A stretch of DNA of 64,000 bases from a bacterium M00.F.Ca.ET.205.01.1.1 (lineage in GTDB: Bacteria > Pseudomonadota > Alphaproteobacteria > Rhizobiales > Rhizobiaceae). Under the pieces are notes generated by a model, which saw nothing but the letters and a program-made list of their open reading frames with translations, did no database searches and was not told the origin of the DNA. Positions 9,498 to 44,465 of the stretch are shown in pieces. The stretch is taken from the NCBI GenBank assembly GCA_004791255.1, contig SRUQ01000002.1, positions 372,001-436,000 of the forward strand. Reading direction: 5' to 3'. Position 1 is the first letter of the stretch, and each line of letters starts with the position of its first letter. The position numbers and the translations under genes are program-made.

Positions 9498-11345
9498 ATG
9501 AGCTTCGAACGCCTGACAATCCAGGACGATAAGTTTCTGATCAACCGCCTGATCGGTCAAGCGCCGCGAAATACGCTTGTCCGAGAGTTCTTCATGAACG
9601 CGCAGGAAAGTGCGGCACTGGCGCCCGAAGGTCATCGAACTGTGCATATCTACCCGTCGTTGGTCGGAGGTGTTCGGAAGTTGACGTTCTGGAACACCGG
9701 ACCGGGAATGGATTCCGGGCAACTTCGGACGGCTACCAACATCTCTGCCTCGATCAACAAACAGATGTCGCTGAGTGAAAATTTCGGCATAGGCGCCAAG
9801 GTGTCCGGCCTGACAGTCTCGCCCGCAGGAATCCGCTATCGCTCCTGCAAGGCAGGCGTGGTTCACGAGGTTACAATAGGATTCGACGATGAAGCGGATA
9901 CGTTTGTTCGATTTGCCTTCGAGGTCGAGGGGCGGCAGGAGACCGTCTTCGATGTCACCGAGGCGGTGCGGAAGACAGCCGATCTCTCACACGACTGGAC
10001 GGAAGTCGTGCTCATGGGCGAGGACGACCTGCATGACACGGTGTCGGAGCCGATCGGCAGAGGAATCCGTGTCGATCGCAGCTATGTCGCAACACAGATC
10101 TTTCGGCGGTTCGCGGAGTTTCGTCCGGGGGTCAAAGTGACTTTGGACGTCGCCATGACAAAAGGAGGCGGCCGGGATGAAACAGGAAGGACTCGCACCC
10201 TTAAAACGCTGCAAGACGTGATCCCGCAACTTCCGAACGCTGAAACTGTCACCTGTCCTGAGACAGGTGTAAAAATTCAGTATGTGCACGACCCGAAGCA
10301 CGCCAATTACAGCCACTCTATCAGCGCACTCAACAACCCAGCGACTTCATCGACGTCGTTCTGCTCACTTGTACATAAGGGTGAGCGATACGATTTCCGC
10401 ACCGGACCGAAATGGTCGGCTATTGCCCCAAATTATGGGATACCTTTCGGCTCCACCGTCCTTACGGTCGAGATATACTTACCGGAGAATGCTGCTCTTC
10501 CAAACCAATATCGTGACGCCGTCACCTCCGTCGAGGCGAGAAATCCGATTGCGACCGACGACTATGCCGTGATGGTCCGCGAGCTGATGCCCGAATGGGT
10601 GAAAGACGTGATCAGAAAGGCGCACCCTCCGAGGGACGAGAACCTCGACGATCTGCAGAAAGACCTTCAGAAGCTACTTGACGAGTTCCGCTTACCGACC
10701 TCGACCTACGTGAAGTCGCTCAACACTCCCCAGCGCACCGAGGATAGTGATGTCGGTCTCGACGAGGCTCGCGCGGCTGACATCGATTCGATCGACGACG
10801 AGGAGGATCGCTTCCTTCGCGGCGAACGGAGGTCCGGCCAGAGGGCGACGGAGAAGAAGATCCGGAAGGCCCCAGAGGGCGCGAAGCTTTCCAAGGAGGC
10901 GCAGGCACTTGAGCGTGTCCCTACGATCGAGATACTGGACGATGCTGCGGAGATCGACGGGAAGCAGATGAAGGGTCGTGCCGGCCGCTTTTATAAGGAT
11001 GCGCAGACGCTTTTCATCAACGGCCTTTATTCCGCGGTCGACAGGATGACTTCGGAGCTAGAAGTACACTTCGCAGGGCAAGCAGAAGGCGAGGCGCTTC
11101 GCAGCATCATCCTCAGGGCGGCACAGCGATCTATGGCATTTCGCGTGGGCAAAGCTACCTGCTACGCGATTAGCAAACGGTTGGTTGATGGATGGTCACT
11201 CGAAGATCTCGAAAGGGCGACCTCCCCCGAGTCACTATCTCTAGCGGCGGATGACTATCGTCAGAGTATCACTGCGGCACGGAAGTGGATCAGCGCCGAG
11301 CTCAAGGCGCATGGATTTGCCGCGGCGGAGCCAGAGCCGGCGTAG
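9498..11345 (+). CDS. GHKL (HSP90/MutL-like) ATPase of a two-gene accessory unit
   Basis: A 615-aa protein with a complete N-terminal GHKL ATP-binding fold: N-box REFFMNAQES (E30, N34), G1 box NTGPGMD (66-72) and G2 lid ENFGIGAKVSGL (94-105). There is no histidine-kinase dimerisation domain, transmembrane segment or receiver, so it is more like HSP90/MutL/MORC-type ATPases. The middle (~120-400) is an alpha/beta region; residues ~430-480 are charged and probably disordered; the C-terminus (~500-605) is helical. The partner gene at 9265 lies directly upstream. In an island with several nuclease-like genes a phage-defence role is reasonable, but nothing in the sequence shows the target. Confidence 0.8.
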   Translation: MSFERLTIQDDKFLINRLIGQAPRNTLVREFFMNAQESAALAPEGHRTVHIYPSLVGGVRKLTFWNTGPGMDSGQLRTATNISASINKQMSLSENFGIGAKVSGLTVSPAGIRYRSCKAGVVHEVTIGFDDEADTFVRFAFEVEGRQETVFDVTEAVRKTADLSHDWTEVVLMGEDDLHDTVSEPIGRGIRVDRSYVATQIFRRFAEFRPGVKVTLDVAMTKGGGRDETGRTRTLKTLQDVIPQLPNAETVTCPETGVKIQYVHDPKHANYSHSISALNNPATSSTSFCSLVHKGERYDFRTGPKWSAIAPNYGIPFGSTVLTVEIYLPENAALPNQYRDAVTSVEARNPIATDDYAVMVRELMPEWVKDVIRKAHPPRDENLDDLQKDLQKLLDEFRLPTSTYVKSLNTPQRTEDSDVGLDEARAADIDSIDDEEDRFLRGERRSGQRATEKKIRKAPEGAKLSKEAQALERVPTIEILDDAAEIDGKQMKGRAGRFYKDAQTLFINGLYSAVDRMTSELEVHFAGQAEGEALRSIILRAAQRSMAFRVGKATCYAISKRLVDGWSLEDLERATSPESLSLAADDYRQSITAARKWISAELKAHGFAAAEPEPA

Positions 11346-11505: not shown

Positions 11506-12393
11506 CTAAAGGCCCAGCGCCTTTCTGAAAGTGAGCTCTTCCACGAAATGTATGTGGCCGCCATTCTCGCGAAGCTTCCGGGCTTCAATGATCTTGGTGC
11601 CCTGATGGCTGTGGAGCCAATCGCGCGAAGCGATGGCAGCTATGATCAGATAGTCGGTGCTGCGAGACACGCTCCTGGAGACCAGCCCTCCCCGTTCCAC
11701 GATCCATCCCTCGATAACCTTTCTAGGCCCGAGACTGAAGGCACCCGTCACTACGAATCCTGCGTTCTCGAACACCAACATGCTCGCGTCTCTCAGGACG
11801 CCGTCTATGGATGGCGTGTTCCCGTACGTTGGCAACCCGGTGTCTGCGCAGCTGTCGCCAACCAATCGAACTATCCATCCGCCGATGTCTTCCTCTTCCT
11901 CCATCGACAGATGCCCGTCCGATATCGCCCTGACAGCTACTGCCTTCAAAGCCGCAATCCTGGAGTCATCGAAGAGGTGAACATTCCGGTCGACGCGGTC
12001 GATCAGCTTCTCGACCTCCTTGATTTTCAGGCGATTGTCGCAGGCGATCCCGGCACAGAAGCCGAAGAACCTGTTGCAGCAATCATTTGGGCTGCTCTCG
12101 GAAAATGGTCTCAGGCGATAGTCCACGATTCCGGAGATAATCCCGAAAATCTCCCCGTGGTAATCACTGTATGTGGTGTCCAAGTCCTGGATAAGATCGG
12201 CGGCGTCGGCGTCTCCAAAAAGCTGGAGGAACTGCTCAGCTTCTGCGCGGATCGAAGCGACCTCCAAGCTCTCAATGGATTCGCTGGCAAGAACCCCTTC
12301 AAGAAAACCCAGCCAGTATGCCTCGACCTTCCGACGGTTGCTCTTGGCTTTTATTCGCCCGAGCTCAGATCCGCCGTACTTCAACTCTACCAT
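11506..12393 (-). CDS. BRCT-domain protein with TerB-like helical repeats
   Basis: The start is placed at the ATG at 12393 (MVELKYGGSELGRIK) behind AGGGAGGGG, giving 295 aa; the frame extends further upstream but without coding character. The C-terminal ~85 residues form a BRCT domain like that of NAD-dependent DNA ligase (FVVTGAFSLGPRKVIEGWI, then RGGLVSRSVSRSTDYLIIAA). The N-terminal two thirds are helical, with two repeats of the form KIKEVEKLIDRV and AISDGHLSMEEEEDIGGWI that recall TerB-like modules. No nuclease or ligase residues are visible. BRCT domains bind phosphopeptides, DNA ends or other BRCT domains. The gene converges on the GHKL gene but is on the other strand, so it is a separate unit. 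Confidence 0.75.
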   Translation of the reverse strand: MVELKYGGSELGRIKAKSNRRKVEAYWLGFLEGVLASESIESLEVASIRAEAEQFLQLFGDADAADLIQDLDTTYSDYHGEIFGIISGIVDYRLRPFSESSPNDCCNRFFGFCAGIACDNRLKIKEVEKLIDRVDRNVHLFDDSRIAALKAVAVRAISDGHLSMEEEEDIGGWIVRLVGDSCADTGLPTYGNTPSIDGVLRDASMLVFENAGFVVTGAFSLGPRKVIEGWIVERGGLVSRSVSRSTDYLIIAAIASRDWLHSHQGTKIIEARKLRENGGHIHFVEELTFRKALGL

Positions 12394-12858
12394 CATCCCC
12401 TCCCTGAACAGCAGTTGAAACATATTGGCGACTGGTCCTCGGCGCAATGACATCAGTTCATAAGACCTGACTTGTCTCCGGATAGACATCGGGAAAGGCG
12501 ACAGCATTCAGCCCGACCTGAACTCGCGCGAGCCAAGTCGTACCCTTTGCCATCGACGATGCGCAAAGGAACGACAATTGTGCAAGACACCTGCGGCCGG
12601 CTATGGCGTGCTCAGGAACCGGAACAGGTAGTTCGCGGCTCGATCGCAGACAAGGTCGATGATGGTCTTCATCGATCTGGACCCGGTCCCCACCTGATGG
12701 CCACGAAAATGAACTGACAGCGTACGCGGCCTGGCCGTGGGGGCTTCGACGAACGCACAGCAAGCGAATGGCTCAGCGGTCCGAAGCCGACGGAATCGGA
12801 CCTGACAAACATGCCGGATATACGACCCGCAGCGAGAACTGAACGCCCGATCGGCCGC
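12394..12858. other. Intergenic boundary between island and radical SAM operon
   Basis: No convincing gene is present; the short frames have biased composition. This stretch separates the accessory genes on the left from the FNR-box-driven operon on the right. Confidence 0.5.
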
Positions 12859-13452
12859 CTAAACCACAGCCCATGCAGCAAGGGACAGACGCCCAATGTC
12901 TGCCACGGCGAGCCCCTGAAGCGAAAGCCCGGGCGTATCTTCCGCCTTAGGTGATACTGTCACCTTGAGTGAGCTGATCTTCCCGTCCATGAACGTGAAG
13001 GCGTGGTTGCCTGTAACCTCGAACCCGCGTTTGTCCCCGGTTCCAATCACCGTCGTCCAACCCACGGCTACGCGTTGACCACGGCTGTCCATCTTGCTCT
13101 TCGTCGTTGGCCGCCCTGTCGCAAGTGTCCGCATGCGATTGACCTTCGTATCCACGACGCCGAGCGCGATCTCAGCAGCGAGAGCCGATGCCGGCTTCGA
13201 AGAGCCATCACCGACTAACGTTAGCGGCATCCCGCAGGCGGAAACTCGATTTTTGTAGAGGACGTGGATCGCATTCTTGCCCTTGTAGGTGCCGCTTACG
13301 GGCGGTGCGCCCGCAAACTCGAATACCCCCTCGTCATCCCAGAGGTCGACCAGCTTCTCGACAGCATCTTGTTGTCCGTTGCGCAGTTCCCGGATGTACT
13401 CAAAGTAGCGTGTGACCACGTCGTGTGGGTCGAATGTCATTTCCTGTACCAT
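12859..13452 (-). CDS. NTF2/SnoaL-like protein, last gene of the radical SAM operon
   Basis: The start is the ATG at 13452 behind GGAAGGAGAGG, giving 197 aa; upstream in-frame sequence belongs to the preceding gene. Residues ~8-150 have the NTF2/SnoaL cone-fold pattern: VVTRYFEYIRELRNGQ, VDLWDDEGVFEF, then GTYKGKNAIHVLYKNR, and near the end FEVTGNHAFTFMDGKISSLKV. Proteins of this fold act as isomerases, cyclases or ligand binders; no catalytic Asp/His set can be fixed by eye. It follows the second radical SAM gene by 14 bases, on the same strand, so it is probably cotranscribed and acts on, or carries, the product of the radical SAM enzymes. Confidence 0.75.
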   Translation of the reverse strand: MVQEMTFDPHDVVTRYFEYIRELRNGQQDAVEKLVDLWDDEGVFEFAGAPPVSGTYKGKNAIHVLYKNRVSACGMPLTLVGDGSSKPASALAAEIALGVVDTKVNRMRTLATGRPTTKSKMDSRGQRVAVGWTTVIGTGDKRGFEVTGNHAFTFMDGKISSLKVTVSPKAEDTPGLSLQGLAVADIGRLSLAAWAVV

Positions 13453-13466
13453 ATTCCTCTCCTTCC

Positions 13467-14516
13467 TCAGTGTTGAAGGCAGCCGACGGCCTGGCGATCG
13501 GGTAGCCAGCAGCGTGGGTCGGCGGCGAAAAGCCGGCCGGTCTTGGCGAACGCGACAGCTCGGCAACCACCGCAGCGGGACCGCACCACGCAGGAATTGC
13601 AGCGGCCCTCAAGATTGTCTCGGTCCTGGAGCGAACGAATGATCGGGGACGTGCTCCAGATCGAGGAAAACGAGGCCTGCCGGACGTTTCCGACCGCAAC
13701 TGGGAGTAAGACGCAGGGAAGCACAGTGCCATTCGCGGTAATACACCCCTGCCCACGACCAGCTTGGCAGCCAATGAAGCCCGGCATTTCGGCGACCTCG
13801 TCGTCAACAAGAATTTGCTGAGCAAGATGGCTGACGATTTCGAGCCGGCCTTTATAGTGGGCCTTCAGCCGGCTAGTCGTTTCGATCACAAAGCGCCACT
13901 CGTCATCGGTAAGATCCAGCGAGTCTGTCCCGCGACCGGTAGGCACGTAGCGCGAGAAGTTCAGACGCTGAACGTCGAAGCCAGCGAGACGCTCGACGAA
14001 CGCTTCGAGGTGATCCACGTTAAGCCGGTTGATCGTGCAGCAGACATGCACGCGCAAGCCGACTTGGCTGGCCGTTGCGATGCTGATCAGCACCCGATCG
14101 AAAAGTCCGGGCCAGAGGCGTAAAGCATCGTGGGCGTGCGGGAGACCGTCGAGGCTCACCTGAAGCCGATTCAGGCCGAGATCGGCAAGCTTGCGGGCGA
14201 CGCACTCGGGCAGCTTCGCCCCGTTGCTGGCCACGCCAACCGACATCCCGCTTAATTTCGCATGCGCGATGATCTCGAATAGGTCGCGACGTATAAGAGG
14301 CTCGCCGCCGGAGATACCGAAGTCGACCACACCGGCCGCCGCAAGCTGATCAATCAGGTCGATGACCTCCGGAGTTGCGAGTTCGTCCGATTTTCGCTTC
14401 GCCGAATTGGACGAGCAATGTAGGCAGCGGGCGGTGCATGCGTCAGTGGCGAGCCACACCATATGGAAAGGCATGTCAGGTCGGAATCCGCCGCCTGTCG
14501 TCAGGTCACTGCGCAT
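13467..14516 (-). CDS. Radical SAM/SPASM protein 2 (NirJ/AhbC/PqqE-like)
   Basis: 349 aa from the ATG at 14516, behind GTGGAG; a TTG 15 bases upstream is possible. The radical SAM cluster motif is CTARCLHC (C27, C31, C34), followed by SGGEPLIRRDL for SAM binding and the barrel strands FSRYVPTGRG. The C-terminus carries a SPASM/twitch cluster: CNSCVVRSRCGGCRAVAFA ... DPRCW. This tail is shared by heme-processing NirJ/AhbC/AhbD and by PqqE, so the sequence alone does not decide between a tetrapyrrole and a peptide substrate. It overlaps the PqqD-like gene by 11 bases and is clearly paralogous to radical SAM protein 1 of the same operon. It is predicted cytosolic and oxygen-sensitive, matching the FNR-type box. 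Confidence 0.85.
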   Translation of the reverse strand: MRSDLTTGGGFRPDMPFHMVWLATDACTARCLHCSSNSAKRKSDELATPEVIDLIDQLAAAGVVDFGISGGEPLIRRDLFEIIAHAKLSGMSVGVASNGAKLPECVARKLADLGLNRLQVSLDGLPHAHDALRLWPGLFDRVLISIATASQVGLRVHVCCTINRLNVDHLEAFVERLAGFDVQRLNFSRYVPTGRGTDSLDLTDDEWRFVIETTSRLKAHYKGRLEIVSHLAQQILVDDEVAEMPGFIGCQAGRGQGCITANGTVLPCVLLPVAVGNVRQASFSSIWSTSPIIRSLQDRDNLEGRCNSCVVRSRCGGCRAVAFAKTGRLFAADPRCWLPDRQAVGCLQH

Positions 14517-14796
14517 GGACCGGCTCCACAATGCCGCGGGTCACGAGCTTGTCGAGGAACTCAGTCAATGCGCCGTGAACAGCGACGCGATCGCTATCAA
14601 GCGCGCCGGCCAACTCGTCTTCGATCTCGTTAACACTGCGCAACCCATCACAGAGGTGGAAAACGAGCACGCCAGTTGGCGGCACCAGGTGCATCTCGTC
14701 GGTTCGAGAGTTGTAAAAGAGATGACCATCCTTCCGCGGCCGCGCCACGCACCATTCAGTGGGCTGCAGGACAGTGTCGGGTTCGACCTTTTTCAT
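14506..14796 (-). CDS. PqqD-like peptide-binding protein
   Basis: A 96-aa PqqD-type winged-helix protein: VARPRKDGHLFYNSRTDEMHLV is the beta region, then GVLVFHLCDGLRSVNEI and ALTEFLDKLVTRGIVEP give the recognition helices. In PQQ and other RiPP pathways, PqqD-like proteins bind the leader of a precursor peptide and present it to the radical SAM enzyme; in some heme pathways the same domain is found as a partner of NirJ-like enzymes. A strong AAGGAGG site precedes the ATG. It lies between the two radical SAM genes (10 bases after the first, overlapping the second), so it could serve either or both. Confidence 0.85.
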   Translation of the reverse strand: MKKVEPDTVLQPTEWCVARPRKDGHLFYNSRTDEMHLVPPTGVLVFHLCDGLRSVNEIEDELAGALDSDRVAVHGALTEFLDKLVTRGIVEPVHAQ

Positions 14797-14806
14797 AGCG
14801 GCCTCC

Positions 14807-15883
14807 TTAAATCGGCAAGCCTTCGCCGGCGGCTATGCCGGCGGCCTCGTCAATTTGCATGGTGTTGACCCAGCAGTGCGGGTCGCCGGCGAGCGGGTCG
14901 CCGTCGCTATATGCATAAGCGACGGCTCGGCAGCCACCACATGTCTTTAAGTGGCTGCACGTTCCGCAATTGCCGCTGACGTGGCCCTGTCGATCACGAA
15001 ACTGGGCCAGCAGGAGCGAGCGATCCCAGAGGTTTCGGAAGCCGTCCCGCGGGATGTTGCCGATCGTAGTTGGAAGAAATACACAGGGCGTGACCGTTCC
15101 ATCGGGCATAATGCGCGCGATCAATCGTCCGGCGCCGCATCCGACGTATTTCCGCTGCTCTTCCTCCGTGACCAGGAGGCCAACGCGGCAGTCATGCCAC
15201 ATGATGTCAAGGCGGCCCTTGTACTTTTCCCGAGCATCGACCCATTCGCGCAGAACGGAGTGAAGCTGATCGGGCGCGAGCGCGAGGGCGCGCGTCCCGC
15301 GGCCTGCCGGCACATACTCGGAGAGATTGACCGCATCCGCTCCGAGCTTCTCCGCCAACGCGATAACGTCGTGACCATGCTTCCAGTTGATCTGGGTTGG
15401 CGTGAAGCCGACGACGACCCGTACATCGCGAGCGATGAGCCGCTCGATGGCGCCCACTGCCTTGTCGAAACAGCCGGGAAGTTGCCGAAAATAATCGTGT
15501 GTCGCGGGATCGTGGCTGTCGAGGCTGATGGTGACGCTCTTGACACCAAGTTCCTTTAGGAGGTCCGCGTTCCGATCGTTGATGCACGAGCCGTTGCTGC
15601 CGACGTTGACATTGAGCCCGCGTCTAACCGCGTGCCCGACAAGCTCGTGCCAATGCCGGTGCATGAGGGGCTCTCCACCGGAAAAAGCCAGCACTAGCAC
15701 CCCGGCATCCGCCAACTGGTCGATGAGGTCGAGGGCATCCGGCAGCGGCAATTCACGCGACGGGACCTCGGGTCCGGACGCCGAATAGCAATGGAGACAG
15801 CGAGCATTGCAGTGGTGGGTTATTTCCCACGCGACATAGAGCGGAGCCGCGAATTCGGTCACCGCAGGCTGATTCATTCCCAC
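14807..15883 (-). CDS. Radical SAM/SPASM protein 1 (NirJ/AhbC/PqqE-like)
   Basis: 358 aa from a GTG at 15883, 6 bases after GGAGG; an ATG two codons in is less well spaced. The motifs are CNARCLHC (C25, C29, C32), FSGGEPLMHRHWHEL, LSEYVPAGRGTRAL and a C-terminal SPASM region CGTCSHLKTCGGCRAVAYA ... DPHCW. Landmarks repeat in protein 2 (VP.GRG, CGGCRAVA), so the pair arose by duplication. The family includes heme d1/heme b enzymes NirJ, AhbC and AhbD and RiPP enzymes such as PqqE. No nirS or other heme d1 gene is in the window, which argues against a simple NirJ role. It follows the alpha/beta-barrel gene by 14 bases. Confidence 0.85.
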   Translation of the reverse strand: MGMNQPAVTEFAAPLYVAWEITHHCNARCLHCYSASGPEVPSRELPLPDALDLIDQLADAGVLVLAFSGGEPLMHRHWHELVGHAVRRGLNVNVGSNGSCINDRNADLLKELGVKSVTISLDSHDPATHDYFRQLPGCFDKAVGAIERLIARDVRVVVGFTPTQINWKHGHDVIALAEKLGADAVNLSEYVPAGRGTRALALAPDQLHSVLREWVDAREKYKGRLDIMWHDCRVGLLVTEEEQRKYVGCGAGRLIARIMPDGTVTPCVFLPTTIGNIPRDGFRNLWDRSLLLAQFRDRQGHVSGNCGTCSHLKTCGGCRAVAYAYSDGDPLAGDPHCWVNTMQIDEAAGIAAGEGLPI

Positions 15884-15897
15884 CTGGGCCCTCCTGT

Positions 15898-16206
15898 CTA
15901 GATCAGGTTTGTCAAATCCTCATAGGTTTCGATTTCCACGCCCTCAACGAGAAGTGTCCGCCACTCTCGAAGCAGATTCTGCATCTGCGGGTCGTCTCGA
16001 ACGCGGGCTTCGTCACTCCGGAACGCCTCGATTGTTTCATATTCGATTACTTCAATGAAACAGCGAGGATCATCGATGTTTCGGAGCAGTCTCACCCGAA
16101 CACCCGACAGTGACTCATAGAAGGGGATCGCTTGCTTTAGAAAAGCGGCGAGTTCGCTGTCGTCCCCAGTTCGAGTCCTTATCCTGAGATGCAGTGTGCG
16201 CTTCGT
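15898..16206 (-). CDS. Dimeric alpha/beta-barrel (ABM-like) protein, start uncertain
   Basis: First gene of the operon. The frame reads TLHLRIRTRTGDDSELAAFL, then GVRVRLLRNIDDPRCFIEVIEYE and ends VEIETYEDLTNLI, a beta-alpha-beta-beta pattern of the antibiotic-biosynthesis-monooxygenase/dimeric alpha-beta barrel type. The nearest standard start is a GTG at 16095, but this would remove the first strand and helix. A good ribosome binding site (GGGAGG, 16212-16217) points instead to a start near 16206, where only ACG or ATC is available. Either a rare start is used or a base is wrong or mutated here. Some dimeric alpha-beta barrels handle heme (HemQ, IsdG), which is of interest beside NirJ-like enzymes, but no heme ligand can be claimed. 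Confidence 0.55.
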   Translation of the reverse strand, partial: TKRTLHLRIRTRTGDDSELAAFLKQAIPFYESLSGVRVRLLRNIDDPRCFIEVIEYETIEAFRSDEARVRDDPQMQNLLREWRTLLVEGVEIETYEDLTNLI

Positions 16207-16261
16207 GATAGCCTCCCATTCTGAGCGCGCTTCATGAAACCATCGTCCGCCTGTGAGGAAC

Positions 16262-16275
16262 TTGATCTAGATCAA
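16262..16275. promoter_or_regulatory. Perfect FNR/Anr/Dnr-type box TTGATCTAGATCAA
   Basis: Exact TTGAT-N4-ATCAA palindrome, 56 bases upstream of the probable start of the minus-strand radical SAM operon and 420 bases before the plus-strand MucR gene. The position suits activation of the radical SAM operon under low oxygen by an FNR- or Dnr-like protein. Confidence 0.8.
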
Positions 16276-30935: not shown

Positions 30936-30949
30936 TTGATCTAGGTCAA
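30936..30949. promoter_or_regulatory. FNR/Dnr-type box TTGATCTAGGTCAA
   Basis: One base from the perfect TTGAT-N4-ATCAA consensus, between the divergent narK and Crp/Fnr genes. It is 86 bases upstream of the chosen narK start and 78 bases before the chosen regulator start, so it could serve both directions. Confidence 0.75.
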
Positions 30950-31026
30950 AGACTGCTGTGACTTCTGTCACGAATGATGCGGTGGTGTGGGAGAGCCGCG
31001 ATCGAGGGGACAATCCGTTGCATGGA

Positions 31027-31740
31027 ATGACGGGTGAGGAAGTGGCACCGGAAGCGCTGCGGCTGTTTCGGGCGCTGTCCGTAGCCATGCGCACCGACCT
31101 GCTACGAAACGCCGTGGTGCACAGTGTAGCCTCAGGCACCGTTTTGTTCGAGCAAGGCGATGTGCCGACCTTCCAACTGATCGTGCTGGCAGGATCCGTG
31201 CAATTGTTTGGACGATCAGCCGACGGTCGAGAAGTGCTGATCGAGGCCGTTCGGGCCCAAGACCTCGTTATCCCTGCCGCTGTCTTGACCGGAGCGCCCT
31301 ATCTCATGCAGGCCCGGGTGCCTGAGCCTTCGCGCCTTCTGTTGATTCATGCGGCGGCGTTTCGCGCGGCCGTGGAGACGAACCCTCTGCTGGCACAGGC
31401 GGTGATCGGAAGCCTCGCACAACAGTTTCGACGCATGGTTCGGCAGATCAAGAGCCTCAAGTTAAGGACCGCGATACAGCGTGTCGGATGTTACCTCTTG
31501 GCCCTGTCACAGAGGCAACGCACTCCAGACAAAGCGGCCCTACCGTTTGAGAAGATGCTGATTGCCTCCGAACTTGGTATAACTCGAGAATCCTTTTCGC
31601 GTGCACTGTCCAGCCTGAGCAACTCAGGCATTCAAGTCCATGGCCAAATTGTCTTGATTCATGACGCTCCTCGGCTAGCCGCCGAATGCGGGTACGACCC
31701 CGTTACCGACGGGCCAGATACCGATGACTTCGTAGTCTGA
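31027..31740 (+). CDS. Crp/Fnr family regulator (Dnr/NarR-like) next to narK
   Basis: 237 aa from the ATG at 31027; the frame extends to a GTG at 30958, but that start would lie only 8 bases after the FNR-type box, inside the expected promoter. An N-terminal cyclic-nucleotide-binding-type barrel (GTVLFEQGDVPTFQLIVLAG) is followed by the dimer helix and a winged helix (LIASELGITRESFSRALSSL). The recognition helix keeps E-xx-SR, the residues with which FNR reads TTGAT half-sites. There is no N-terminal cysteine set for an Fe-S cluster, so it is probably of the heme/NO-sensing Dnr or NarR type. Likely targets are the four TTGAT-type boxes in this window. Confidence 0.85.
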   Translation: MTGEEVAPEALRLFRALSVAMRTDLLRNAVVHSVASGTVLFEQGDVPTFQLIVLAGSVQLFGRSADGREVLIEAVRAQDLVIPAAVLTGAPYLMQARVPEPSRLLLIHAAAFRAAVETNPLLAQAVIGSLAQQFRRMVRQIKSLKLRTAIQRVGCYLLALSQRQRTPDKAALPFEKMLIASELGITRESFSRALSSLSNSGIQVHGQIVLIHDAPRLAAECGYDPVTDGPDTDDFVV

Positions 31741-31772
31741 TTGACCGAAATCGCGGCAATCACTGCTTTTGG

Positions 31773-31786
31773 TTGATCCAAGTCAA
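31773..31786. promoter_or_regulatory. FNR/Dnr-type box TTGATCCAAGTCAA
   Basis: Close match to TTGAT-N4-ATCAA, placed 54 bases before the GTG of the 58-aa membrane protein and 33 bases after the regulator stop. The spacing suits a class II activation site. Confidence 0.7.
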
Positions 31787-31840
31787 CGCCTGTCCGTCAC
31801 TCTTGCCGTCACCTCAACCAGTTGAGGAAGGAGAACTGGT

Positions 31841-32017
31841 GTGCCAACGGAAAGCTCGACGATCACCATCCTAGTGTTGGATGTCTTTGCCTTCCTGGCT
31901 GTGCTGGCCTACGCCTCTTTCGAATCGCGTCATAAGTCACGCAAACAGCGCCGTGCGCTGATCCACACGGATTTGGACGAGAGACCTCGCCAGAATTCAA
32001 TCAAGCCGAAAGCCTGA
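31841..32017 (+). CDS. 58-aa single-pass membrane protein
   Basis: GTG start at 31841 behind a strong ribosome binding site (GAGGAAGGAG) and 54 bases after an FNR-type box. The product has one hydrophobic helix (ITILVLDVFAFLAVLAYASF, residues 8-27) and a basic, then mixed-charge cytosolic tail (ESRHKSRKQRRALIHTDLDE). It resembles no family I can name. It may be a small component or regulator of a membrane respiratory complex. Its 3' end overlaps the convergent 71-aa gene by 21 bases. Coding potential is supported by the start signals rather than by homology. Confidence 0.65.
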   Translation: MPTESSTITILVLDVFAFLAVLAYASFESRHKSRKQRRALIHTDLDERPRQNSIKPKA

Positions 32018-32212
32018 AGCGCCAAACATGAGATGGCGACCCGTTATCAGGGGAACCTTGAGGATAGGTCCTTGCTCATCAAAGTCCTGGATCGGCGGCC
32101 CTGCAACGTACGGATGCATCTTCAGCATGGTCTGCCAGATGGTGGGAAAGTCCGCACCTTGGCTGCGCGTAAAGTTGCACTCCCTGACAAGCCTGGAAAC
32201 GACATCGGCCAT
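31997..32212 (-). CDS. Small conserved-looking protein, unknown
   Basis: 71 aa from the ATG at 32212, behind AGAGG; the longer frame upstream covers an FNR-type site. The sequence is compact and patterned: SRLVRECNFTRSQGADFPTIW, then LKMHPYVAGPPIQDFDEQGP and LKVPLITGRHLMFGASGFRL. No cysteine cluster, signal peptide or membrane helix is present. I recognise it as the kind of short protein that accompanies denitrification genes in Rhizobiales but know no function. The FNR-type boxes at 32276 and 32335 lie upstream of it as well as of the divergent GNAT gene. Confidence 0.65.
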   Translation of the reverse strand: MADVVSRLVRECNFTRSQGADFPTIWQTMLKMHPYVAGPPIQDFDEQGPILKVPLITGRHLMFGASGFRLD

Positions 32213-32275
32213 TGGGGGCGACCTCTTCGATAAACTGCTGAATCTTCGAAGACACTTTGATCTCGGCCACCCGCA

Positions 32276-32289
32276 TTGATCTCGATCAA
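32276..32289. promoter_or_regulatory. Perfect FNR/Dnr-type box TTGATCTCGATCAA
   Basis: Exact TTGAT-N4-ATCAA, 63 bases upstream of the minus-strand 71-aa gene and 144 bases before the plus-strand GNAT gene. It is the first of two boxes in this short divergent promoter region. Confidence 0.75.
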
Positions 32290-32334
32290 ATGGGCCGACA
32301 TTTCTCGCCGCGCGGCCTAACTTCACTCGCGTCT

Positions 32335-32348
32335 TTGATGCGCATCAA
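32335..32348. promoter_or_regulatory. Perfect FNR/Dnr-type box within a larger palindrome
   Basis: Exact TTGATGCGCATCAA. It is the centre of a 34-base inverted repeat at 32325-32358, whose outer arms (ACTCGCGTC and GACGCGAGT) are exact complements with a single mismatched pair next to the box. It lies 85 bases before the GNAT gene. The extended arms suggest a second protein site or an RNA hairpin in the transcript. Confidence 0.75.
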
Positions 32349-42017: not shown

Positions 42018-42566
42018 ATGGTGACGATTAGCACGGAACCGAGATTGCCGGCGGTCGTTCGCCATCTTTTCCCGGCCTTCGCCGGCTTGCCACTCGGGCC
42101 GCTGCTCACGCTGTCCTTGCGCTCTTTGGCCGGGCGACAGCCTCGATTGTTCGACCGCTTGGGCGAACATCGAACAGCTTGCTATTTCATCGACCCGGTC
42201 GACCTCGGCTTCGCATTTACCGTCGTACCGGACGCAGAGCGTTCGATCGTTCGTGTCGTCAGGAAAAGTGAGGCCGCGACATCAAGCGTCCAGATCAGAG
42301 GACCTATTCTGACACTGTTGAGCCTGCTCGACGGCACGCTTGATGGCGATGCGCTCTTCTTCAGCCGGATCATCTCGATCAGCGGCCGCACGGAGGCGGT
42401 GCTCGCGCTGAGGAACACGATCGAGGATGCCGAGCTTCGCCCGGCGGATCTGCTCGGCTTGCGCGGCGCACTGGCTCGTCTTGTCGATACGGGAATTCTT
42501 GGTGCGCTGGGTGTCGCGCGCCAAATGGCTGATCGAAATTCCAGACGCGAGGCGCCAGAGGCATGA
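42018..42566 (+). CDS. ubiT: UbiT-like SCP2-domain protein
   Basis: 182 aa. An SCP2 sterol-carrier domain occupies most of the protein (CYFIDPVDLGFAFTVVPDAE, QIRGPILTLLSLLDGTLDGDALFFSR). UbiT binds lipid and holds ubiquinone precursors in the oxygen-independent pathway together with UbiU and UbiV. Its stop overlaps the ubiU start by four bases. GALFFSRxISISGRTEA-like sequence is the most typical UbiT landmark here. Confidence 0.9.
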   Translation: MVTISTEPRLPAVVRHLFPAFAGLPLGPLLTLSLRSLAGRQPRLFDRLGEHRTACYFIDPVDLGFAFTVVPDAERSIVRVVRKSEAATSSVQIRGPILTLLSLLDGTLDGDALFFSRIISISGRTEAVLALRNTIEDAELRPADLLGLRGALARLVDTGILGALGVARQMADRNSRREAPEA

Positions 42567-43561
42567 CAAGCGGACGCATGGAACTTGTCTGCCCGGCCGG
42601 AACCCCCGCTACGCTGAGGGCAGCCGTCCAGGCGGGTGCGGATGCGGTGTATTGCGGATTTCGCGATGAAACGAATGCCCGGAATTTTCCGGGACTCAAC
42701 TTCTCCGGGGAAGAACTGGCCGAGGGCGTCCGCTTCGCGCATGACCACGGCAGCAAGGTTCTCGTCGCCATCAACACATTCGCGCGCGTCAACGATGTCG
42801 GCCTCTGGAAAAAGGCAGCGGACACGGCGGCCGAATGCGGCGCAAATGCCATCATCGCGGCGGACATAGCCGTCCTTGATCACGTCGCCAAGAACCATAA
42901 ACAAATTCGTCTTCATCTGTCGGTACAGGCTGCGGCAGCAACGCCGGAAGCAATCCGATTCTATGCGGATAGCTTCGGCATCCGTCGCGTCGTCCTGCCG
43001 CGTGTGCTTTCGGTCCAGGAGATCGCGGCGCTCAATCGTGCCATCGACGTGGAAACGGAAGCATTCGTGTTCGGCGGCCTTTGCGTGATGATCGAAGGCC
43101 GATGCTATCTCTCTTCATACGCGACGGGAAAATCGCCAAATCTGAATGGCGTCTGTTCGCCACCCGAAATGGTGAGTTACGACGACGAGCCGAACGGCAC
43201 GGCGGCACGGCTTTCAGGGTTCACGATCGACCGCTACGAGCCAGGCGAGCCAGTGGGCTACCCCACCTTGTGCAAGGGCAAATTCAAGGCCGGCGGCAAG
43301 ACCTCCTATTTGTTCGAGGATCCCGTCACCCTGAACGCCGGCGGGATGATTGCCGGGCTGAAAGCCGCCGGCGTAACCGCCTTGAAGATCGAAGGACGCC
43401 AGCGTGGCAAAGGTTACGTGACGGAAGTGGTCCGTGCCTTCCGGAAGGCCGTTGACGCCGTCGAGCAAGGTGGCGACGCGATCGAAATCGATCGGATTCT
43501 TGCTGGCCAGTCGGAAGGTTCCCGGCAGACAGCAGGAGCGTATAGCAAGAAGTGGAGATAG
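42563..43561 (+). CDS. ubiU: Oxygen-independent ubiquinone hydroxylation protein UbiU (U32 family)
   Basis: 332 aa of the peptidase U32 family: MELVCPAGTPATLRAAVQAG at the start, NAIIAADIAVLDHV and LSVQAAAATPEAIRFY in the barrel, then FVFGGLCVMIEGRCYLSSY and CSPPEMV with C..C residues that bind the [4Fe-4S] cluster. UbiU forms a complex with UbiV and hydroxylates the ubiquinone ring without oxygen, using prephenate as oxygen donor. The gene is between ubiT and ubiV in one operon. There is no protease function expected despite the family name. Confidence 0.93.
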   Translation: MTSGRMELVCPAGTPATLRAAVQAGADAVYCGFRDETNARNFPGLNFSGEELAEGVRFAHDHGSKVLVAINTFARVNDVGLWKKAADTAAECGANAIIAADIAVLDHVAKNHKQIRLHLSVQAAAATPEAIRFYADSFGIRRVVLPRVLSVQEIAALNRAIDVETEAFVFGGLCVMIEGRCYLSSYATGKSPNLNGVCSPPEMVSYDDEPNGTAARLSGFTIDRYEPGEPVGYPTLCKGKFKAGGKTSYLFEDPVTLNAGGMIAGLKAAGVTALKIEGRQRGKGYVTEVVRAFRKAVDAVEQGGDAIEIDRILAGQSEGSRQTAGAYSKKWR

Positions 43562-43565
43562 GACT

Positions 43566-44465
43566 TTGTCCGCAATTGCGTTGACGCTTGGGCCGGTCTT
43601 CTTCCACTGGTCGCCCGACCGCCTCTCGGATTTCTACCGCAGGATAGCAGACGAGGCTCCGATAGACCGTGTCCATGTCGGCGAAGTCGTATGCGGCAAG
43701 CGGATGCCGTTTTCCGATCCTGTATGGCCTGAGATCATCGAACGCCTTGAGCGCGCCGGAAAGGAAGTGGTGCTGTCCACGCTGGCAGCACCGGCGACCG
43801 TTCGGGAACGCAGAAGCATCGAGGACCTCTGCGGCGACGAGCGGCTGGTCGAAATCAACGATGTCACCGCCCTGCCGTCACGCTCCGGCAAGCCCTTCGT
43901 GACCGGTCCTTTCCTGAACGTTTATAATGAAGCTTCCGCGCGGTTCCTCATCCAGCGCGGTGCCACAACGATATGCCCGCCGGTGGAATTGTCGCTCGCC
44001 GCCGTCGGCGCCATGGCCGGCGCATGTCGCGAGGCAGAATTCGAGATCTTCGCCTTTGGCCGGCTGCCGCTCGCGCTCTCCGGCCGATGCTACCACGCGC
44101 GCATCCATGGCCTTCACAAGGATTCGTGCCAGTTTACCTGTGAGAAGGACCCGGACGGTCTTGCCGTAGACACGCTCGACGATCAGCAGTTCCTCGCGAT
44201 CAATGGCGTTCAGACGCTCTCCAACCAAGTGCAGGCCTTCTGCCCCGCACCTGCGGATCTCACCTCCAGAGGCGTCCGGCGCATCCGCCTTTCTCCGCAC
44301 ACATGCGACATGATCGAGGTGTCGAGGACCTATAGAGCGCTTGTCGACGAGGCGGAGGATCCCAAGGCTGCTCGCTTCATCCTCTCGTGCCTCGATCTGC
44401 CCGGCACGCTCGTCGATGGATACGCCCATGCCAAACCCGGATGGCAGGCGACCGCTTCGATCTGA
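43566..44465 (+). CDS. ubiV: Oxygen-independent ubiquinone hydroxylation protein UbiV (U32 family)
   Basis: 299 aa from a TTG at 43566, four bases after the ubiU stop; the only ATG choice lies inside ubiU, and this length fits the family. Landmarks: ALTLGPVFFHWSPDRLSDFYRRIAD, VHVGEVVCGKRMPF (one cluster cysteine), LSGRCYHARIHGLHKDSCQFTC and FCPAPADL. The four cysteines hold a [4Fe-4S] cluster. Partner of UbiU in anaerobic ubiquinone synthesis, needed for nitrate respiration. Confidence 0.92.
   Translation: MSAIALTLGPVFFHWSPDRLSDFYRRIADEAPIDRVHVGEVVCGKRMPFSDPVWPEIIERLERAGKEVVLSTLAAPATVRERRSIEDLCGDERLVEINDVTALPSRSGKPFVTGPFLNVYNEASARFLIQRGATTICPPVELSLAAVGAMAGACREAEFEIFAFGRLPLALSGRCYHARIHGLHKDSCQFTCEKDPDGLAVDTLDDQQFLAINGVQTLSNQVQAFCPAPADLTSRGVRRIRLSPHTCDMIEVSRTYRALVDEAEDPKAARFILSCLDLPGTLVDGYAHAKPGWQATASI

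Follow-up and report, generated by a model that had tools for sequence, protein, structure and literature searches.

An operon behind an FNR-type box that encodes two radical SAM/SPASM enzymes, a PqqD-like protein and an NTF2-like candidate precursor

We analysed a stretch of 64,000 nucleotides of the Rhizobiaceae bacterium M00.F.Ca.ET.205.01.1.1 (contig SRUQ01000002.1, positions 372,001 to 436,000; in the following: the window), and more specifically an operon of five genes on its minus strand (12859-16209) that overlap or are spaced by 10-14 bases. In order of transcription these genes encode: a small protein with an ABM fold, a first radical S-adenosylmethionine (SAM)/SPASM enzyme (rSAM1), a PqqD-like protein, a second such enzyme (rSAM2) and an NTF2-like protein. 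The initial annotation, made from the letters and the open reading frames (ORFs) alone, had described five tightly spaced genes behind a perfect FNR-type palindrome, and the gene calls, the Pfam matches and the site at 16262-16275 agree with that description. The features are the following, where RiPP stands for ribosomally synthesized and post-translationally modified peptide:

16262-16275, no strand: perfect FNR-type palindrome TTGATCTAGATCAA, about 55 bases 5' of the first gene
15898-16209, minus strand: small ABM-fold protein (dimeric alpha/beta-barrel type) with a predicted ATC start; accessory, present in three of the four close loci
14807-15883, minus strand: rSAM1, a radical SAM/SPASM enzyme with CxxxCxxC and the SPASM cysteines
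14506-14796, minus strand: PqqD-like protein of the RiPP recognition element (RRE) family PF05402 (Pfam E-value 9e-8, above the cut-off)
13467-14531, minus strand: rSAM2, the second radical SAM/SPASM enzyme, starting at TTG 14531 or at an ATG around 14516
12859-13452, minus strand: NTF2/SnoaL-fold protein of 197 residues; proposed precursor with a folded leader and a C-terminal core
12901-12951, minus strand: linker from the last NTF2 strand to the tail, with an LxxL-type motif that is a possible, weakly indicated PqqD recognition site
12862-12900, minus strand: near-invariant C-terminal tail DIGRLSLAAWAVV, directly followed by the stop codon; proposed modified core

The Pfam domains Radical_SAM and SPASM were found on both enzymes, which are 39% identical to each other, and the NTF2-like protein matched SnoaL_2 (E 1.7e-6). 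The latter had been regarded as an unexplained partner, a view that we would replace: its near-invariant tail makes it the most likely substrate. Within the best 120 of 191 matches, 119 homologues close with D[IVLM]GxLxxxAWxV, followed by a last one or two residues, and the remaining homologue (P0164) stops within the tail. The motif plus a single residue is terminal in 115 of the 119 intact homologues and one further residue follows in the other 4. The mean information per column, calculated over 89 non-redundant sequences, was 4.07 bits for the 13-residue tail, as compared to 2.82 bits for residues 1-167 and 2.55 bits for the linker. A search of 322 genomes of the order with a codon-degenerate DNA pattern of tail plus stop gave matches in 3, all of them at NTF2 genes of this type; for the reversed control pattern, the genomes listed contained no match. 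In the structure model (predicted local distance difference test, pLDDT, 85) strands and helices extend up to residue 165 and are followed by the linker, a helix (182-192) and a less certain end. Of the 120 homologues listed, 114 have a loose LxxL-type stretch directly N-terminal of the tail, which we count as weak evidence.

The initial annotation had allowed for the operon being found in this genome only; the set recurs in other genomes, five loci of which were compared with the window:

L006, Hyphomonadaceae metagenome-assembled genome: five genes, ABM gene in front
L007, Afifella pfennigii: four genes; ABM gene not found
L014, genome G1148, from the taxonomic order of the window: five genes, ABM gene in front
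L016, genome G1234: VOC - NTF2 - rSAMa - PqqD - B12-binding-type radical SAM - rSAMb
L024, Indioceanicola profundi plasmid NZ_CP030128.1: NTF2 - rSAMa - PqqD - radical SAM protein - rSAMb

The check on synteny that had been proposed turned out positive, in that the order rSAM1-PqqD-rSAM2-NTF2 is common to the window, L006, L007 and L014. A PqqD-like protein was found in six of the six loci, and in each of the five other loci the enzymes are accompanied by this protein and by a tailed NTF2 protein. L016 and L024 form a second, diverged subtype. Their NTF2 proteins share 22% and 24% identity, respectively, with that of the window and 41% with each other; the tails, IEDMGKLASVAWMVA and IEDLGHLSAMAWMVA, have kept D-x-G-x-L-x3-A-W-x-V. 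Of 57 NTF2 matches with a longest contig of at least 3500 bases, 26 have a contig size identical to that of a listed rSAM1 match, where the level expected by chance (jittered sizes) is about 1 over all 120 NTF2 matches.

The source names of the matches include Mesorhizobium, Rhodopseudomonas, Competibacteraceae, Polyangiaceae, Methylomirabilis, Actinoplanes and Longimicrobium. The operon was present in 1 of 146 genomes of the genus, in 2 of 297 and 3 of 397 genomes of the order (overlapping draws), in 1 of 11 genomes of the Afifella family and in 2 of 28 genomes of family f16, one of these being the divergent form. In the draws from the class (385 genomes) and the phylum (398 genomes) the genome of the window itself was the sole match at E 1e-10; in these two draws and in that of 397 genomes, up to eight candidates were scored per genome. 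A presence this sporadic would point to horizontal transfer. The search of plasmids with the NTF2 protein gave no match, and the divergent Indioceanicola copy was found via rSAM1; the B12-type radical SAM protein, rSAMa and rSAM2 recovered the same Indioceanicola record only. The NTF2 protein of L016 had one, near-identical, match among 5.8 billion proteins. A phage or viral origin was considered as well and rejected: no relative of the NTF2 protein was found on viral contigs, and neither this protein nor the PqqD-like or ABM protein had a PHROG match.

All six loci have a TTGAT-N4-ATCAA box with at most one mismatch (no mismatch in the window and L006, one in L007, L014, L016 and L024) in the 150 bases next to the first gene, at 39-124 bases from the gene start. 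For a single locus such a box occurred in 16-34 of 5000 shuffles (0.3-0.7%), and a perfect site within 150 bases 5' of the first gene, as in the window, in 3 of 5000 dinucleotide shuffles. Over its whole length the window contains three perfect sites and three with one mismatch, as compared to 1.26 expected with at most one mismatch; a total of six was not attained in any of 100 shuffles. This is strong evidence that the upstream element is an FNR/FixK-type box, and the FNR-type site that had been described is thereby supported; we infer that the box responds to oxygen and that FNR or a homologue acts there. Its presence suggests that the operon serves anaerobic or denitrifying growth and not the production of an antibiotic. 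Two of the perfect and two of the one-mismatch boxes lie in another region of the window (30936-32348), around and beyond the gene for a Crp-family regulator (30958-31740).

The two enzymes were compared with NCBIfam (best 25 of 71 and 73 families, respectively) and scored below the cut-offs of: NirJ (TIGR04051; 173.3 and 164.8 bits, cut-off 515.45), AhbC (TIGR04546; at most 168 of 650 bits), AhbD (TIGR04545; at most 211 of 500 bits), PqqE (TIGR02109; 120.4 bits for rSAM1 and 125.4 bits for rSAM2, cut-off 381.35), MftC (TIGR03962; 159.7 and 146.2 bits, cut-off 265) and the GeoRSP enzyme (TIGR04303; 203 and 155 of 400 bits). The PqqD-like protein remained under the cut-offs of all five NCBIfam families that it matched, and reached 20 of 100 bits for the GeoRSP PqqD (TIGR04302). 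On these scores, membership of the NirJ, AhbC/D, PqqE, mycofactocin and GeoRSP families was rejected. In the window's own genome no NirJ above the cut-off was found, the matches being rSAM1, rSAM2 and one more radical SAM protein. The enzymes were also placed in trees, with 9 of the 120 listed rSAM1 homologues sampled. In the second tree (30 sequences, with as plasmid references three NirJ, two MftC, two PqqE and two TIGR04053 sequences) rSAM1 grouped with rSAMa (97/94) and rSAM2 with rSAMb (96/93), and the references fell outside both clades; the two enzymes thus appear to move as one set with the PqqD-like and the tailed protein. That the proteins might fall inside a characterised pathway, for which the initial annotation had also allowed, is not borne out by the scores and the tree for the pathways covered, AhbC and AhbD being represented by their scores and included in neither tree. 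A PADLOC match of rSAM1 to viperin (E 4.6e-19, best over residues 17-131 of the radical SAM core) was read as superfamily kinship, and a role in defence was rejected.

We conclude, with a probability of roughly 0.62, that the operon encodes an anaerobically induced RiPP-like system, in which the folded NTF2-like protein is the precursor and its tail is modified by the two radical SAM/SPASM enzymes. A PqqD-like recognition protein encoded together with modifying enzymes, as is characteristic of RRE-dependent RiPPs, was indeed found. Passages in the literature describe that PqqD-like proteins bind leader peptides and recruit modifying enzymes (PMC7470986) and that PqqD-type recognition elements bind W/Y/LxxP/L/I motifs (PMC12710340). 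The NTF2 domain and the linker would act as leader and the tail as core; the PqqD-like protein, for which the LxxL stretch before the tail may be the binding site, would hand the tail to rSAM1 and rSAM2, which may each act on different residues. The likeliest targets would be the Trp that is invariant in the tail and the Val residues at the C-terminus, with a carbon-carbon cross-link or a C-terminal change as made by PqqE and MftC as the outcome. In MftC chemistry, as described in a passage of PMC9062424, the C-terminal Tyr is decarboxylated and joined to the adjacent Val, which makes the C-terminal Trp-x-Val-Val a plausible radical target. The ABM, VOC and B12-type radical SAM proteins may represent tailoring variants.

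An antibiotic is a less likely product than a conserved group that is protein-borne or cofactor-like, because the operon lacks a peptidase or exporter gene (nor is there a transporter gene among the five), because none is annotated around the Indioceanicola operon (17 kb, incomplete gene table) and because the core is near-constant across distant bacteria. More tentatively, and with rather less confidence than the foregoing, the system could represent a new RiPP class, in which a precursor with NTF2 fold and a Trp-containing tail is converted by the two SPASM enzymes, only when oxygen is scarce, to a protein-borne cofactor-like group, a peptide cofactor on a scaffold for anaerobic metabolism, with involvement of a B12 radical SAM enzyme in the second subtype.

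Several observations weigh against the proposal that the tail is a modified core. The cores of RiPPs are usually more variable than their leaders, and here the core varies least. The tail lacks an invariant Cys, Tyr or Lys, many residues of the NTF2 domain are invariant too, and the predicted helix (182-192) would make conservation of the tail fit a docking or recognition helix equally well. Between the window and L016 the contrast is modest: 6 of 13 tail residues are identical and 40 of 150 elsewhere, and of the near-invariant columns 6 of 9 are kept in the tail and 18 of 37 in the domain. With respect to the enzymes, approximately unbiased (AU) tests did not reject a joining of either group with NirJ, PqqE or MftC (p 0.066-0.11). 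The rSAM2-rSAMb clade was missing in the first tree, which contained a very long TIGR04347 branch; in the second, from which the TIGR04347 row had been dropped, it was obtained with a long-branch warning. The tree thus sets the enzymes apart from the references and does not prove their distance.

The main rival explanation takes the tail for a helix used in docking or recognition, and the NTF2-like protein for a scaffold or partner enzyme that binds the PqqD-like protein or the radical SAM enzymes via this helix, with the reaction occurring in the pocket of the NTF2-like protein or on a small molecule bound there. The helical tail and the many invariant domain residues are compatible with this, and the matches of the protein in the PDB are SnoaL/NTF2-type proteins that include small-molecule-binding isomerases, hydrolases and SnoaL-like proteins. 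Yet the tail motif plus one residue is terminal in nearly all intact homologues, as expected for a C-terminal core, the operon lacks a transporter and no other convincing substrate-like gene was recovered, so that we consider a docking helix unlikely, and that the tail is substrate and that the chemistry is performed on it we infer from the sequences. The peptide is also favoured in the choice that the initial annotation had left between a tetrapyrrole and a peptide as substrate. A tetrapyrrole, modified in the manner of NirJ, AhbC or AhbD, would suit the nitrate and nitrous oxide reductase genes nearby and the appearance of AhbD, NirJ2 and NirJ among the best NCBIfam scores. These scores, however, are far under the cut-offs (AhbD 211/500, NirJ 173/515 bits), and MftC and the GeoRSP enzyme score similarly. 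The own genome contains no NirJ over the cut-off, the NirJ references fall outside both clades (where the AU tests leave a join possible), and the PqqD-like protein is a constant of all six loci, in the other five next to a tailed NTF2 protein; the tetrapyrrole is therefore improbable and that part of the earlier claim is unsupported.

It had also been stated that no precursor peptide is visible, which is right for a separate small gene and misses the conserved candidate at the C-terminus of the NTF2-like protein. A short precursor encoded elsewhere in each genome, with the NTF2-like protein as tailoring partner, would leave few traces in a screen that spans five loci (window, L006, L007, L014 and L016; 681 ORFs of 20-140 residues) and about 2-4 kilobases (kb) upstream and 0.3-4 kb downstream. 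Within that range, and in answer to the check that had been proposed for homologous loci, no convincing conserved short ORF was found outside the genes: there were 35 matches that lay outside genes on both sides, and the best pair (L007 upstream versus L014 downstream, E 2e-5) was attributed to composition and discarded. The tail is the sole clearly conserved substrate-like sequence that was found, and from an operon that recurs on unrelated replicons, including a plasmid, an unlinked precursor would presumably be lost; we rate a separate precursor about as improbable as the tetrapyrrole. Least probable is that the tail is a targeting signal, such as one that directs a protein into an encapsulin shell. 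Encapsulins are known to recruit cargo through C-terminal peptides, but the PqqD-like protein and the radical SAM enzymes would be left unexplained, and an encapsulin (PF04454) was matched in none of five host genomes, the Indioceanicola genome lying outside this search, and in 3 of 14 controls; encapsulin targeting was rejected on that result.

The small product of the first gene is supported as an ABM fold by a model and its structural matches: Pfam ABM alone is not significant (E 0.064), and the AlphaFold model made from three sequences (pLDDT 86.9) has its best PDB match among ABM-family structures (E 7e-7). The gene has no ATG, GTG or TTG at the expected beginning and an ATC two bases past GGGAGG (around 16209); at this place the L006 copy has an ATG, likewise two bases after GGGAGG. 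The window copy likely uses a rare ATC start, the other option being a weakened gene. Elsewhere in the window are genes for: MoeA, a nitrate reductase beta subunit, a major facilitator superfamily (MFS) transporter, a Crp-family regulator, UbiU, UbiV and a nitrous oxide reductase. UbiU and UbiV (42563-44465, plus strand), for anaerobic ubiquinone synthesis, score above the NCBIfam cut-offs. Downstream of the operon, long ORFs at 9498-11345 (plus strand) and 11506-12507 (minus strand) had neither a Pfam match (1e-5) nor a PADLOC match.

In the second subtype the PqqD-like protein of L016 scores 20.1, with the Pfam cut-off at 23.4. The fourth enzymes of L016 (4664-6112) and L024 (9330-10778) are 61% identical to each other; that of L016 falls just short of the Pfam B12-binding cut-off (30.5 of 32.1 bits) and that of L024 matches several B12-binding radical SAM families, all below the cut-offs, from which it is probable that this enzyme binds B12. 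The best, very weak NCBIfam match of the L024 enzyme is the RiPP enzyme ApyD (95 of 750 bits). The Indioceanicola operon is followed by genes for TIR-domain and SIR2-family proteins (L024, 12203-15300). Two other plasmids were encountered. Plasmid pTs417 of Candidatus Thiodictyon (L034, 5659-11736) carries a different cluster, with a 474-residue protein that is annotated as PqqD family and also matches rSAM1, followed by radical SAM, amidohydrolase, YcaO and TfuA-like genes. On a plasmid of Microvirga ossetica (L035, 5983-12825), three genes of the xanthine-dehydrogenase type are preceded, at a distance of about 2 kb, by a gene for a radical SAM protein that shares 30% identity with rSAM1.

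In the full-text literature that was searched, with subscription journals largely outside its coverage, no paper was found that describes a radical SAM system with NTF2/SnoaL and PqqD/RiPP components, nor one under the GeoRSP or SynChlorMet names; the papers that were listed concerned other systems, and NTF2 or SnoaL is not mentioned in the main text of the RRE literature searched. RiPP leaders are understood as short and largely unstructured, and structured proteins as substrates are a recent idea, according to a passage of PMC10858898. If true, the folded NTF2 protein with its near-invariant core would be a new class of radical SAM substrate with a defined tail. Up to about 200 proteins (191 matches), now labelled 'hypothetical', 'nuclear transport factor 2 family' or 'ketosteroid isomerase-like', would then become one named system together with their 'radical SAM/SPASM' neighbours.

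Among the known systems, that of heme d1 and siroheme-derived heme (NirJ, AhbC, AhbD) has the SPASM tail architecture and a denitrification neighbourhood in common with the operon, and differs in that all cut-offs were missed, in the PqqD-like protein and putative NTF2 precursor found here, and in the lack of a NirJ over the cut-off in the own genome. With GeoRSP, the second-best NCBIfam score of rSAM1 (203 bits), the operon shares a radical SAM/SPASM enzyme with a PqqD-family protein, whereas the cut-off of 400 was missed, the PqqD-like protein reached 20 of 100 bits, and an NTF2 partner is not known from that system. The pyrroloquinoline quinone (PQQ) pathway (PqqA-PqqD-PqqE) likewise combines a PqqD-like protein and a SPASM enzyme; here the PqqE scores are 120 and 125 versus 381 bits, the other operon genes are not pqq genes, and the tail lacks the Glu/Tyr pair that PqqA carries. 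Proteusin leaders are nitrile-hydratase-like, where the proposed leader has a SnoaL_2/NTF2 fold and comes with SPASM enzymes and a PqqD-like protein. The large, partly structured leader with a C-terminal core is common to both, and a passage of PMC10858898 treats structured proteins as substrates of RiPP enzymes. As in the gamma subunit of quinohemoprotein amine dehydrogenase (QhpC/QhpD), where a radical SAM enzyme modifies a protein subunit and the modification is kept in the mature enzyme (part of PMC7876137), the product may stay on the protein; QhpD, however, makes Cys-Asp/Glu thioethers, and here the tail is without an invariant Cys and the five genes without a protease or exporter. The precursor of mycofactocin, MftA, is a short peptide, and the operon differs by its 197-residue folded NTF2 protein, its two SPASM enzymes and the position of the MftC references outside both clades (a join not being rejected; scores 160 and 146 versus 265 bits). 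The mycofactocin system (MftA-MftB-MftC) nevertheless offers the likeness that a SPASM enzyme and a PqqD-like chaperone act at the very C-terminal end of a ribosomally made precursor (as given in part of PMC9062424), and the operon would belong with RRE/SPASM peptide modification, with a new and folded precursor.

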